A stretch of 64,000 nucleotides of DNA. Origin: Epilithonimonas lactis. GTDB taxonomy: Bacteria > Bacteroidota > Bacteroidia > Flavobacteriales > Weeksellaceae. The notes beneath the pieces were generated by a model, which worked only from the letters and a program-made list of their open reading frames with translations, had not been told where the DNA came from and made no database searches. Below are positions 17,812 through 27,373 of this stretch, in pieces. Numbering within the stretch: position 1 is the stretch's first letter; every line of letters begins with the position of its first letter. The position numbers and the translations under genes are program-made. The stretch spans positions 62,001-126,000 of the forward strand of contig NZ_FOFI01000006.1 of assembly GCF_900110605.1 (NCBI RefSeq). The letters run 5' to 3'.

Positions 17812-17906
17812 GAGCTTGATCCCGCTATCCGCTATATCTTTTTTGCCCAGGCTTTTTCCCCAGCAAAAAAGGATGCCGCTTCTATCGGGGCTATTGAGAC
17901 GTGACG
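17812..17906. repeat. Dispersed palindromic repeat, copy 2 (after rpe)
   Basis: A 95-bp element starts directly after the rpe stop: CCCGCTATCCGCTATATC, TTTTTTGCC, a central GGCTTTTTCCCCAGC, then AAAAAAGGATGCCGC and TTCTATCGGGGCT. The arms are imperfectly complementary. The core matches the 27195-27300 copy (TCC-CTAT-TCTTTTT and AAAAAGGAT-CCGCTTC-ATC). A plus-strand ORF drawn across it into ndk is not a real gene. Confidence 0.75.
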
Positions 17907-17966: not shown

Positions 17967-18386
17967 TTAGAAGATCTCTCTTCCAGAAAAGTGGAATTGC
18001 GCTTCGATCAAAGCGTTCTCGTCTGAGTCAGAACCGTGAACTGCATTTTCTCCGATGCTTCTTGCGAAAAGCTTTCTGATAGTTCCCTCAGCCGCTTCAG
18101 CAGGATTGGTAGCACCAATTGTAGTTCTGAAATCTTCTACTGCATTGTCTTTTTCCAAAACCGCCGCTACGATCGGACCAGAGGACATAAAGTCTACCAA
18201 CTCTCCGTAGAAAGGTCTTTCAGAATGTACTTCGTAGAATTTCTTAGCATCAGCAACAGTAAGTTGCGTCAATTTCAAAGCTTTGATCTTAAAACCAGCT
18301 TCACTGATTTTTCCAAGGATCGCACCAATGTGACCATCTGCAACAGCATCTGGCTTGATCATGGTAAATGTGATTTTTCCTGACAT
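17967..18386 (-). CDS. ndk: Nucleoside diphosphate kinase
   Basis: A 139-aa enzyme that equalises nucleoside triphosphate pools with ATP as donor. Motifs are TMIKPDAV at the N-terminus, the [15 protein letters not shown] region, [20 protein letters not shown], and the active-site phospho-His segment [12 protein letters not shown]. Length is standard. Its -7 box lies at 18415-18422 and its terminator at 17919-17938, so it is monocistronic. Confidence 0.98.
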
Positions 18387-18422: not shown

Positions 18423-18479
18423 CGATAATTTTCCTTTAAATTTGTCCTCGGAAATTCTTTTCTGGGAAAAAATATTTTT

Positions 18480-18495
18480 TGGCACACAGTTTGCT
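18480..18495 (+). promoter_or_regulatory. Sigma-54 (RpoN) promoter, near-perfect
   Basis: TGGCACACAGTTTGCT matches the RpoN consensus TGGCACG-N4-TTGCW at every position except the seventh (A for G). GG (18481-18482) and GC (18493-18494) have the exact spacing required. The predicted start is near 18506. It sits on the plus strand in the ndk-ccsBA gap, where no plus-strand protein gene follows. An RpoN activator is encoded at 7606-8952. Confidence 0.75.
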
Positions 18496-18505
18496 ACTTA
18501 ATATT

Positions 18506-18571
18506 CGATTCTCATGTTTAATTTGAGTTTTCATGGTTATTAGTTTTTACCCTGCTTCGGCAGGGTTTTTT
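18506..18571 (+). ncRNA. Predicted ~65-nt sigma-54-dependent small transcript
   Basis: A transcript starting 12 nt after the RpoN -12 element would end at the intrinsic terminator at 18549-18571, about 65 nt in all. It contains a 9-codon ORF, MFNLSFHGY (18514-18543), closing 5 nt before the terminator stem. It could be a small regulatory RNA or a micro-peptide mRNA. I do not recognise the family. Support is the promoter-terminator pairing only. Confidence 0.5.
18549..18571 (+). terminator. UUCG-capped intrinsic terminator
   Basis: ACCCTGC-TTCG-GCAGGGT followed by six Ts is a textbook tetraloop terminator on the plus strand. The only upstream plus-strand transcription unit is the predicted sigma-54 small RNA. 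Confidence 0.9.
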
Positions 18572-18600: not shown

Positions 18601-18640
18601 AAATACCGCCAAAACAATTTAACTTGTTCTGGCGGTATTT
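18601..18640 (-). terminator. Terminator of ccsBA
   Basis: AAATACCGCCA and TGGCGGTATTT form an 11-bp stem, extended by AAACAA/TTGTT, followed by a T-rich tract on the minus strand. It lies 55 nt beyond the ccsBA stop. With the sigma-54 unit it accounts for most of the 308-bp ndk-ccsBA gap. Confidence 0.85.
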
Positions 18641-18694: not shown

Positions 18695-21600
18695 TTAAGG
18701 CTCAACCTGCGTTCTTTCATCTTTTTTGATCTGAAGATCATTGTGCAGTTTTTTATATTTTATCCAGGCAAAAATCGAAAGCACGATCATATATCCAATA
18801 CTCACATAAACCCAAAGTGGAAGCGGAATTGGATCTCCTTTTGCGTAAGAGTGCAATCCGGAAAGATAGTAATTCACGCCGAAATAGGTCATGACCATGG
18901 AACAAAATGCAAACATCGTCACCACGTGGAAAGTGTATCTTCCTCTCAAACCTGGAACCAATCTCATGTGGATCACGAATGCGTAGATCATGATTGAGAT
19001 GAACGCCCAAGTTTCCTTCGGATCCCAGCTCCAATAACGGCCCCAAGATTCGTTGGCCCAAATTCCTCCCAAGAAGTTTCCGATGGTCAATGCTAACAAT
19101 CCGATATTTAGAGACATCTCACTTACAATGGCTAGTTCTTTCAGCGTCGTATCGTTATGTCTTTTGAAAGTGTCTTTGTTGGCGATGATGTAGAAGATCA
19201 GAGAGATCATGGCAATCAACATCGACAAAGAGAAGAATCCATAACTGGATGTAATGATCGCAACGTGAACCACGAGCCAATAAGACTTAAGAACAGGAAC
19301 TAATGGTGTAATCTGCGGATCCAAAGCAGAACCACCGTGCGCAAATCCCATCATAATCACCGCAACCAAAAATCCAGCTGCAGGAATCAAGGTATTCGAG
19401 TTTCTGTACAAGGCATATCCTGCTGAAATCCCAACCCAAGAGATGAAGATGATCGCCTCATAACCATTACTCCAAGGTGCATGTCCGGAAATATACCATC
19501 TCGCCACCAATCCTAAGAAATGGAAGGTGTAACCAATTGCACCAATGTAGATCAATGCTTTTATCACATTATTAAGGATCTTGCTCGGCTTGAACAATTG
19601 CGCAAAACCTAAAATCAAAAGCAAACCACCGATCATCGTATAGAAAATCAATAATTTGAAATTGATGTCAAGCTTGTTGATCAGAACTTCAATTTTAACT
19701 TTGGTTTCGGAAGGCACTACATTTTTGCCCCATTTCTGTTGATACGCCTCTACTTTTTTAAGTTCAGCATCGGCTTTTGCCCAACTTCCACCTTGTGTTG
19801 CCATCAAAACGCTAGACAAATATGGACCTAGAACGGACTGTGCATTTTCATCTGGTTCAAAAGTTGGCGTCATCACAGAACTCCAGGTATGATTCGAGTC
19901 GTTTTTAACTGGAATTGTTCTGAAATATTGGTAAGACATGATCCCATTAAGAACCTGAACTTTGTCATTCAGTTTGATCACCGCTTCATCGTATCTTGTT
20001 CTTTCTGCTGGTTTCTTTCGGAAGGCGTCATTATAATCATCTTCCAATACGAAACGTAGATTTCCGTTTTTGTCGGCTGGAAATAATTTGATCAAACTGG
20101 TGAAACCTTCTTCAGTAGCTTTTGTTTTAGCTCTTAGGTCTTTTCCAACTTTACCTGCCGTTTCAATTTTGATGATATTGACCTGTGCCCAGAACATAGG
20201 ATCGATTGTCGCTGCCAAAAACCATTGATTGGCATCCAAATCTTGGAAAGTCGAACGTAAAGTTAATTTATGTAAAATATCAAGCGCCTGTGTATTGGCC
20301 GGAACAATACGACCTTCATAATTTTGAACCAATAGAGAACCGAACTTGTCTGCATGTTCCTTGTTGATCGTGATATTTTTCACCATTTCGTCCGCATCCA
20401 AAACCATTGGGTTTTTATTCGGAGCGGTAGCTTTTGCTTCGGTTGAATTGGAATGACCTTCGTGACTTCCGTCCTTTCCGTGCATATCGATCTCCTGAGC
20501 ATTAAGTCCGAAACTTAATAATAGCATAACAGCAACTTTTGCTTTTTTCTTGCTAATCGTTTTCAACATTTGGTTGAGACTCCAGAATCTAGAACCTTTC
20601 CAGAACATGGTCACGAACATTCCTATGAATAAGAAGGCGTAACCGATGTAGCTGATCAAAGTTCCCCAGAAATCGTGGTTCACAGAAAGAACCGTTCCTT
20701 TTCTGTCTGGATCAAAACTTGCCTGGAAGAATCGGTAACCTTTATAATTAAGAACGTGATTCATATAAATATTGTAAGGCGTTTCTTTGCCTTCGTCCAC
20801 GATCTTCACATGAGATTCATACGCAGATGGCGAAGAACTTCCTGGATAAGTTTCCATGACGAATTTTTCTAATTTCAATGCGAAAGGTTGGGTAAAATAA
20901 ACTTTTGGACCGAATCCTAACATAATATCCAATCCATCAACTTTGATCTGTTTGTAGTTATTTGGATTTCCTTTTTCTACCACAAGGTCAACCATTTGCT
21001 TCGTTTTTGGTCCAGAGACTTCCACCCTCAACAAATCCGGAACATCTTTATCTTTTTGCTTATCACCTTCGTAATTCACCAGTTTCCCTTTTTTCGTTCC
21101 TTCCGGAATTACCAATTTCAATTGATCGATCGTATATAGACTTCTTAAGACCAAAGGTTGGAATTCATCTTTCTTAGTTGTTCCGGTTGCCTGAGTTGCC
21201 ATGGTCATAAAGGCTGCATCAGTTGGTGTTTTGATGTAAAGTTGTCCATCCTTCTTTTGGAATTCAACCGCGCCTTCAATGGCTGTTCTGTTGTAACTTA
21301 CCAAAGTTCCATTAATATTTTGGACATCTCCTTCACCCAAATAGATATTTTGACGGCCGCCCATATCACTCGTAGAAACCAAGTGCAGATATTCCTTTCC
21401 AGCGCCTGCAACCAAACTATCTTTCTTTCTTTGGATATAATCCACAGCTTTCACAACGATTTTTTCCTTTCCTAAGAAATCATAAGTTGCCTGGAAATCG
21501 TGGTGAAGTGGTGACATTAGATAAGGAACATCGTGGTAATTCTGTTGCTCTCCTTTCTCTTCAATTTTGATTTTGAAGAAATGTTTGTCTGTAATAATCT

Positions 21601-21940
21601 CATTATTCGTTTCACCTTCACGGATGTGCATTGTCCCTTCAAAACTGATGTATCGCGTGATCGCACCTCCGATGAATATTAAAATGAAAGCCAGGTGGAA
21701 AACCAAAATTGGCCACTTCTCTCTTCGGAAAAGCCTGTAACGTCCTATATTACCAATGAAGTTTAATATCAATAAAAACATTACGGCTTCAAACCATTTG
21801 GCTTCGTAGATCAATGCCTTCGCTGTTGGTGTTCCGTAATCGTTTTCAATAAAAGTGGCAACAGCCATAGAAATTGCGAAAACCAGCAAGAGAAGCGCCA
21901 TCGTCCGCGTAGAAATAAGAATATCCTGAATCTTTTTCAT
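18695..21940 (-). CDS. ccsBA: Fused cytochrome c synthetase CcsBA (ResB-ResC)
   Basis: A 1081-aa inner-membrane fusion of System II cytochrome c biogenesis proteins, which export haem and attach it to CXXCH apocytochromes. N-terminal ResB-like half: TM segments in the first 90 residues, a large periplasmic domain, and a TM segment near residue 440. A middle periplasmic region (about 470-780) is followed by a C-terminal CcsA half with several TMs and the WWD haem-handling motif WANESWGRYWSWDPKETW. His residues of the haem gate (VVHVAIITSSY, FVIHMRL) are present. The length is typical of Bacteroidota fusions. Its terminator is at 18601-18640. Confidence 0.94.
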   Translation of the reverse strand: MKKIQDILISTRTMALLLLVFAISMAVATFIENDYGTPTAKALIYEAKWFEAVMFLLILNFIGNIGRYRLFRREKWPILVFHLAFILIFIGGAITRYISFEGTMHIREGETNNEIITDKHFFKIKIEEKGEQQNYHDVPYLMSPLHHDFQATYDFLGKEKIVVKAVDYIQRKKDSLVAGAGKEYLHLVSTSDMGGRQNIYLGEGDVQNINGTLVSYNRTAIEGAVEFQKKDGQLYIKTPTDAAFMTMATQATGTTKKDEFQPLVLRSLYTIDQLKLVIPEGTKKGKLVNYEGDKQKDKDVPDLLRVEVSGPKTKQMVDLVVEKGNPNNYKQIKVDGLDIMLGFGPKVYFTQPFALKLEKFVMETYPGSSSPSAYESHVKIVDEGKETPYNIYMNHVLNYKGYRFFQASFDPDRKGTVLSVNHDFWGTLISYIGYAFLFIGMFVTMFWKGSRFWSLNQMLKTISKKKAKVAVMLLLSFGLNAQEIDMHGKDGSHEGHSNSTEAKATAPNKNPMVLDADEMVKNITINKEHADKFGSLLVQNYEGRIVPANTQALDILHKLTLRSTFQDLDANQWFLAATIDPMFWAQVNIIKIETAGKVGKDLRAKTKATEEGFTSLIKLFPADKNGNLRFVLEDDYNDAFRKKPAERTRYDEAVIKLNDKVQVLNGIMSYQYFRTIPVKNDSNHTWSSVMTPTFEPDENAQSVLGPYLSSVLMATQGGSWAKADAELKKVEAYQQKWGKNVVPSETKVKIEVLINKLDINFKLLIFYTMIGGLLLILGFAQLFKPSKILNNVIKALIYIGAIGYTFHFLGLVARWYISGHAPWSNGYEAIIFISWVGISAGYALYRNSNTLIPAAGFLVAVIMMGFAHGGSALDPQITPLVPVLKSYWLVVHVAIITSSYGFFSLSMLIAMISLIFYIIANKDTFKRHNDTTLKELAIVSEMSLNIGLLALTIGNFLGGIWANESWGRYWSWDPKETWAFISIMIYAFVIHMRLVPGLRGRYTFHVVTMFAFCSMVMTYFGVNYYLSGLHSYAKGDPIPLPLWVYVSIGYMIVLSIFAWIKYKKLHNDLQIKKDERTQVEP

Positions 21941-27090: not shown

Positions 27091-27194
27091 AATCAAATCC
27101 CAAATTGAAATGCTAATTATTTGGGCGTAACCCTTTGTTTTTGCCAAGACGTTTCTCCATTTTGATAGAAAGCTCTCAGTTTAGCAAAAAACAA

Positions 27195-27300
27195 GCGGGT
27201 CGGGCTGTCCACTATTATCTTTTTGTCTAGAACGTTTCCCATCCAAATTGATATTAATCCAAAGACAAAAAGGATAACCGCTTCCATCCCTTACGCAGCT
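27195..27300. repeat. Dispersed palindromic repeat, copy 3
   Basis: An imperfect palindrome: GGGTCGGGCTGTCCACTATT then ATCTTTTTGTCT, a 35-nt centre, then AAAGACAAAAAGGATAACCG and CTTCCATCCCTTACGC. The arms ATCTTTTTGTCT/AAAGACAAAAAGGAT are the most complementary part. GGGCGTAACCC at 27123-27133 is probably an outlying part of the same element. It belongs to the same family as the 17812 copy. It occupies the left third of the 694-bp gap between the DUF2490 gene and aceF. Confidence 0.75.
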
Positions 27301-27373
27301 TGGGTTATCAGCACGACGTGAGTCCATCAATTAAAATTTATTCTAAACTTATATTTAAGTGTAATCCATTCCA

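Follow-up and report, generated by a model that had tools for sequence, protein, structure and literature searches.

Does the short gap between ndk and ccsBA in Epilithonimonas lactis hold a gene, and what might its product do? The window analysed here is a 64,000-nt stretch of contig NZ_FOFI01000006.1. A preliminary description had placed a sigma-54 promoter and a terminator on the plus strand between two minus-strand ORFs, which it named ndk (17967-18386) and ccsBA (18695-21940), and had proposed that the two signals make a tiny RpoN-dependent RNA. The first ORF is the divergent neighbour and marks the orthologous locus; the second is the convergent neighbour here. Comparison with related genomes bears out the predicted terminated transcript. 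We regard it as nearly certain that positions 18506-18571 are a conserved sigma-54 small-RNA gene, a prediction drawn from the conservation of its elements between poorly conserved flanks and from a covarying terminator stem.

A predicted sigma-54 small-RNA gene beside ndk

The candidate promoter, TGGCACACAGTTTGCT at 18480-18495 (plus strand), has a -24 element TGGCAC with its GG at 18481-18482 and a -12 element TTTGC with its GC at 18493-18494. The ten bases between GG and GC are the exact spacing claimed for it. An exact match to TGGCACNNNNNTTGCW occurs once in the window, at this promoter. When two mismatches are allowed, 29 sites are found and 29.2 are expected, so the promoter evidence from a single sequence is weak on its own. 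We accept the promoter and the RNA signals as real because they are conserved between flanks that are not.

This conservation was evident in several searches. Of 59 genomes of the same family, the window's own among them, 51 gave a BLAST match to a 106-nt query with an E value no higher than 1e-8; in 39 genomes from the order's other families, no match had an E value below 0.006. Named genomes contain an exact 41-mer from the RNA interior in at least 120 stretches, and the matches listed include Chryseobacterium, Epilithonimonas, Kaistella, Elizabethkingia and Bergeyella. Sampling of the ndk region in one genome per genus, which avoids selection by the RNA itself, gave 30 loci from 33 genomes, 29 of which could be parsed. 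The promoter-terminator pair with its conserved interior lies close upstream of ndk in 22 of these 29 readable loci, and inspection revealed the RNA in two further genera (G035 at L269; G044 at L337, with two core changes). All 22 loci holding the 8-mer TTTCATGG at ndk hold the 20-mer too. In the commonest arrangement, found for 67 of 121 genome-locus copies, the order is ndk, the RNA and a 308-aa ORF read by eye as rsgA. The right neighbour in Epilithonimonas is a different gene from this ORF of many relatives, and the RNA is retained.

Loss of the GG and GC elements in close relatives had been named as grounds for abandoning the RNA; the -24/-12 pattern is present in all 22 ndk-linked copies, with an identical GG-to-TTG distance in every one. 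Mean pairwise identity among these copies is 95% for TTGGCAC and 100% for the TTG, the latter by construction, as promoters were placed by the pattern GGCW...TTG. The base 3' of this TTG is C in 8 copies, T in 11 and A in 3, so the GC of the window is the fullest form of the -12 element. Identity is 34% upstream of the promoter, 36% between its elements, 38% in the spacer that follows and 31% downstream of the RNA, whereas it reaches 99% for GATTCTCA and again 99% for TGAG plus the core. The step from the 38% of the spacer to the 99% of GATTCTCA is a sharp 5' edge of conservation. We set +1 at this edge, 12 nt past the -12 C, which yields a predicted RNA of about 66 nt (18506-18571). The window genome has an rpoN match (E 2.4e-51), as do 34 of the 37 genomes tested. 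The match is absent from G027, G029 and G034, which are 79 to 83% complete; G027 and G034 still carry the RNA.

As read from the predicted fold, the RNA consists of a mini-hairpin, an open core and a terminator. The mini-hairpin (18511-18527, plus strand) is a CUCA-loop-UGAG element whose loop varies in sequence and length among relatives: TGTTTAATT is the loop in 18 of the 22 ndk-linked copies and four other loops occur once each, while TGAG is present in all 22. The terminator, ACCCTGC-TTCG-GCAGGGT-TTTTT at 18549-18571 (plus strand), begins 55 nt after the -12 C, in agreement with the roughly 55 nt first proposed. It spans A18549-CCCTGC-TTCG-GCAGGG-T18566 and continues as T through 18571. 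Its stem changes on both sides across genera, and each of positions 4 to 8 is occupied by between three and five kinds of base pair in the 21 folded ndk-linked copies (G054 was left out). A 74-nt stretch folds better than 200 of 200 shuffles (z -2.95), mostly via the terminator as we read the structure. A covariance model was set aside: its automatic structure had four pairs and missed both hairpins. A scan of 261 bases around the locus to E 5 gave no Rfam 15 match over the gathering cut-off; the best sub-threshold hit, on the minus strand, scored 23.6 bits where 85.6 was required.

Other signals lie nearby. An inverted repeat, AATACCGCCA...TGGCGGTATT at 18602-18639, is probably the terminator of the convergent ccsBA. 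Two Flavo-1 RNAs (RF01705) were found in the window, both on the minus strand, at 17814-17896 (69.5 bits), just past the 3' end of ndk, and at 27194-27304 (53.5 bits).

A multicopy family in hosts, phages and probably a plasmid

The ndk-linked gene is one member of a larger family. A search of 246 genomes in 33 genera of the bacterial family found the 22-mer core, with at most one mismatch, in 204 genomes and 26 genera; a reversed control pattern was found in none of the 246. Positive genomes hold 1 to 8 core matches, some of which are start regions rather than RNA genes. Four exact copies are present in the window genome. The three away from ndk carry TAnnTTTG boxes, different 5' parts and different terminators; TAnnTTTG is the sigma-A consensus of F. 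psychrophilum (PMC9723704). These sigma-A-type paralogues lie at C5:39132-39160, C5:53101-53126 and C8:53053-53078 of the window genome G000 (L002 to L004), and two of them have a 5' part GGAAAU...AAGG before the same core.

Across the genomes, 187 distinct hairpin copies fall into 131 with a sigma-54 motif, 27 with TAnnTTTG, 18 that are on phage contigs or adjacent to a tRNA and 11 unclassified, by patterns that were picked after the sequences had been viewed and that shuffled upstream regions match at 2.3% and 2.6%. On reading, the 11 unclassified copies include two linked to tRNAs (L164, L295) and three with GG-N10 sigma-54-like sites (L129, L180, L286). The CUCA...UGAG element is present in 131/131 sigma-54-type, 18/27 sigma-A-type, 16/18 tRNA/phage and 10/11 unclassified copies. 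Where the 5' part is shared, the two kinds of promoter would start transcription near the same place, CGAUUCUC. Some Epilithonimonas genomes have an extra sigma-54-like copy of the TGGCTTACTTATTGCT type with a different upstream region (L051, L054, L068, L071, L073).

The exact 22-mer also occurs in 18 viral contigs, as the RNA form with hairpin in 14 and without the hairpin in four (L201, L207, L210, L211). Three more viral copies were located via a neighbouring element, and the cores of two of them (L454 and L455) are changed. Ten proteins of the viral contigs were scanned. Six gave matches to families of phage-type integrase, endolysin, DNA polymerase or primase (L195, L198, L203, L205 and, twice, L208), two to families whose function is unknown, and the other two gave none. 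The RNA stands directly 3' of a tRNA-like end at L198, L202, L203 (twice) and L212; tRNA genes were called at L198 and L202, Rfam identified that at L203, and L212 was recognised by sequence alone. In nine distinct cases and three more, a hairpin element of about 40 nt lies between tRNA and RNA (L100, L164, L195, L197, L204, L205, L209, L265, L268, L454 to L456). The arms of this element appear to covary and its loop resembles UUAARCUACRGGAAAUUGYG. At L199, L206 and L208 a protein ORF ends ahead of the RNA or runs into it. These arrangements suggest that the phage RNA may be freed by tRNA processing. Phage T4 offers a parallel in its RNAs C and D, unassigned stable non-tRNA RNAs within phage tRNA clusters. 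The RNA described here is likewise a small non-tRNA RNA in phage tRNA arrays; unlike RNAs C and D, it is also a conserved host gene.

Three of the viral contigs (L201, L207, L211) have several start-region-like sites per few kb that resemble the core complement (TAAAAACTAGAAATCATG), and no RNA copy was seen beside these sites in them. GenBank phage records gave no match to the RNA. Plasmid records gave two partial matches, one of 43 nt at 86% in Chryseobacterium joostei and one, to the terminator end only, in Duffyella. At the place of the C. joostei plasmid match (NZ_CP033927.1), L238 (G269:C2, 30209 bases) has an RNA copy with terminator. A plasmid thus appears to carry the RNA family too.

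As far as sampled, the family is confined to one flavobacterial family, its phages and a plasmid. In a class-wide sample of 395 genomes, the three genomes of this flavobacterial family matched, and seven others had one three-mismatch match each, all seven of which we read by eye as opposite-strand start regions. The 13 genomes of this sample from the same order and other families had no RNA copy and one start-region match. A literature search that included the core letters returned no description of the RNA; subscription papers, most preprints and supplements lay outside its coverage. We have found this multicopy RNA family described nowhere.

The core as a complement of translation start regions

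The nearly invariant core, UUUUCAUGGUUAUUAGUUUUUA (18528-18549, plus strand), is mostly unpaired in the predicted fold, and it is the complement of a flavobacterial start region: its complementary sequence is UAAAAACUAAUAACC-AUG-AAAA. We scored the antisense core against a start-region position matrix built on 313 non-redundant ORF starts. Its score, 8.53, is reached by 1% of real starts, by 3 of 43,759 ATG sites that are not starts and by none of 6,110 CATG sites. An earlier matrix of longer span (387 starts) placed the core complement at the 93rd percentile, with none of 20,000 shuffles reaching it; on that matrix the second CAUG of the RNA was not significant (15% of shuffles). Bacteroidota are naturally without Shine-Dalgarno sequences, and in F. 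johnsoniae Baez et al. report that A is enriched from -14 to -11 and that A-12, A-13, A-6 and A-3 have positive effects (PMC6847099 for both). The core complement has A at -14 to -10, -7, -6, -4 and -3. These positions match those that the same source describes as promoting initiation in Flavobacterium (PMC6847099).

Duplex calculations gave a mixed result. Averaged along genes, duplex energy shows a dip at the start codon, and its mean at -5 was matched by 2 of 300 shuffles with CATG fixed. Sites that reach -10 kcal/mol number 52 among the 313 starts; shuffles with CATG preserved give 25 (sd 8.8), and one of 300 of them reaches 52. The contrast in energy between start and flank was matched by 42 of 300 such shuffles, and this counts against masking.

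The best explanation, towards which we lean with some reserve, is that the locus encodes a sigma-54-driven member of a family whose core masks translation starts without Hfq. Firing of sigma-54 and its activator would make the RNA accumulate, and its open core could pair with the translation start regions of mRNAs. The U-runs of the core would face A at -14 to -10, A-6, A-3 and the A's past the AUG, and its CAU would face the AUG itself. A start region paired in this way would be closed to ribosome initiation, with no Hfq involved; Hfq was found in none of 27 genomes of the family, and 5 of 14 control genomes were positive. The sigma-A paralogues and the phage tRNA-adjacent copies may deliver the same core at other times.

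Which mRNAs might be masked? In the window genome, the 12-mer AATAACCATGAA occurs nowhere outside the four RNA genes, so targets there, if any, pair less extensively. A search for long perfect targets with ACTAATAACCATGA in 98 genomes (the window's own included) returned mostly the RNA gene itself. As no targets were found, start masking is a mechanism that we infer. Among core-like matches in the family, 15 of 40 stretches are ORF start regions with one mismatch in 22 to the core complement (L239 to L242, L245 to L247, L249 to L251, L255, L260 to L263). Three pairs of stretches lie at one gene each: L239 with L241, L250 with L251, and L301 with L302. The gene at L260 has a leader with three repeats of a TAATAACCAT-like motif before its start.

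A target-like 12-mer had 147 matches (RNA copies included) in 37 genomes that bear the RNA and 42 in 37 that do not, compared with 19 and 27, respectively, for a comparator 12-mer. Once the RNA copies L394 and L405 had been moved out of the start class, starts of ORFs of at least 40 codons accounted for 34 of the 70 matches read in RNA-bearing genomes (68 stretches, some of the 70 being RNA genes) and for 11 of the 32 read, from 42, in genomes without it. The enrichment is modest and is confounded by phylogeny, genome size and shared orthologues, and we therefore do not count it as proof.

A near-invariant 22-nt core fits a protein site equally well. The core could bind such a protein, one of the RRM type like RbpB for instance, which the RNA would titrate or load, with the variable 5' part, or nothing, pairing with mRNA; we hold this to be possible, if doubtful. 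It would account for a core that is kept while the 5' part varies and for the lack of a long target in the window genome, and the absence of Hfq makes another chaperone plausible. RbpB binds multicopy FopS RNAs (PMC11697453). A protein site leaves unexplained, however, why the core is a near-ideal complement of a start region with well-placed A's.

Masking of starts could also be taken further. The core complements the Kozak-like signal of the lineage, and the RNA may be a generic anti-start-region RNA, a broad brake on translation fired by sigma-54 in hosts and processed from tRNA transcripts in phages. This is a speculative extension that we consider unlikely. If it is true, the phage copies would steer translation in the infected cell or shut out rival phages.

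Other readings of the locus fare worse. Conserved position, with ndk on one side in most loci, could point to an element acting in cis, such as an antisense or a terminator between ndk and the convergent gene. We think this very improbable: the same RNA occurs at many unrelated loci and in phages, its flanks are unconserved, and it was not lost when the right neighbour was replaced in Epilithonimonas. It is also scarcely to be expected that the complementary strand is the functional one, as the start region of a short ORF beginning MKTQIKHE; that strand has an excellent start-region score, but the ORF ranges from a few to about 50 codons with no conserved end, and the promoter motifs, the U-run and the tRNA orientation fit the plus strand.

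The nine-residue peptide MFNLSFHGY (18514-18543, plus strand) suggested in the preliminary description is barely credible as the product: its frame is present in the window and intact in 18 of 22 ndk-linked and 125 of 131 sigma-54-type copies (many of the latter were retrieved with an exact 41-mer in which the frame lies), but the remaining 4 of 22 show start losses and single-base insertions or deletions, it is found in just 12/27 sigma-A-type, 9/18 tRNA/phage and 5/11 unclassified copies, and intact frames are identical at every base, silent positions included. Between a conserved ORF and a conserved RNA structure, the comparison sides with the structure, through the covarying terminator stem, and against the ORF.

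Related RNAs and significance

The closest analogues, by description only, are the FopS/GibS sRNAs of Bacteroides thetaiotaomicron. These are also multicopy paralogous sRNAs, and FopS acts by binding close to start codons, where it prevents translation from initiating (PMC11697453). The RNA described here shares their multicopy nature; complementarity to start regions is found as a property of the class of sites. FopS pairs via its 5' end, is made from sigma-ABfr promoters and represses SusC transporters (PMC11697453). In contrast, the putative pairing part here is the core, which lies inside the RNA and next to the terminator; the orthologous copy is predicted to be sigma-54-driven, and there are phage copies. 

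Short sigma-54 RNAs had been called rarely described in Bacteroidota, and this statement needs trimming. Rfp36 of Flavobacterium psychrophilum is a precedent: it too is a putative regulatory RNA, preceded by a sigma-54 (SM4) promoter (PMC9723704). Rfp18 of the same species is likewise a conserved flavobacterial sRNA and is set apart by its description: it is strongly structured and pairs via its third stem-loop, whereas the RNA here has one mini-hairpin and a terminator (PMC9723704 for Rfp18).

Bacteroidota lack Shine-Dalgarno sequences, and with no Hfq match in the genomes scanned, the question arises of how their sRNAs find and silence mRNAs. A core that complements experimentally defined determinants of initiation would be a directly testable answer. 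The RNA would also be an output of sigma-54 in this flavobacterial family, and an RNA gene common to hosts and their phages.
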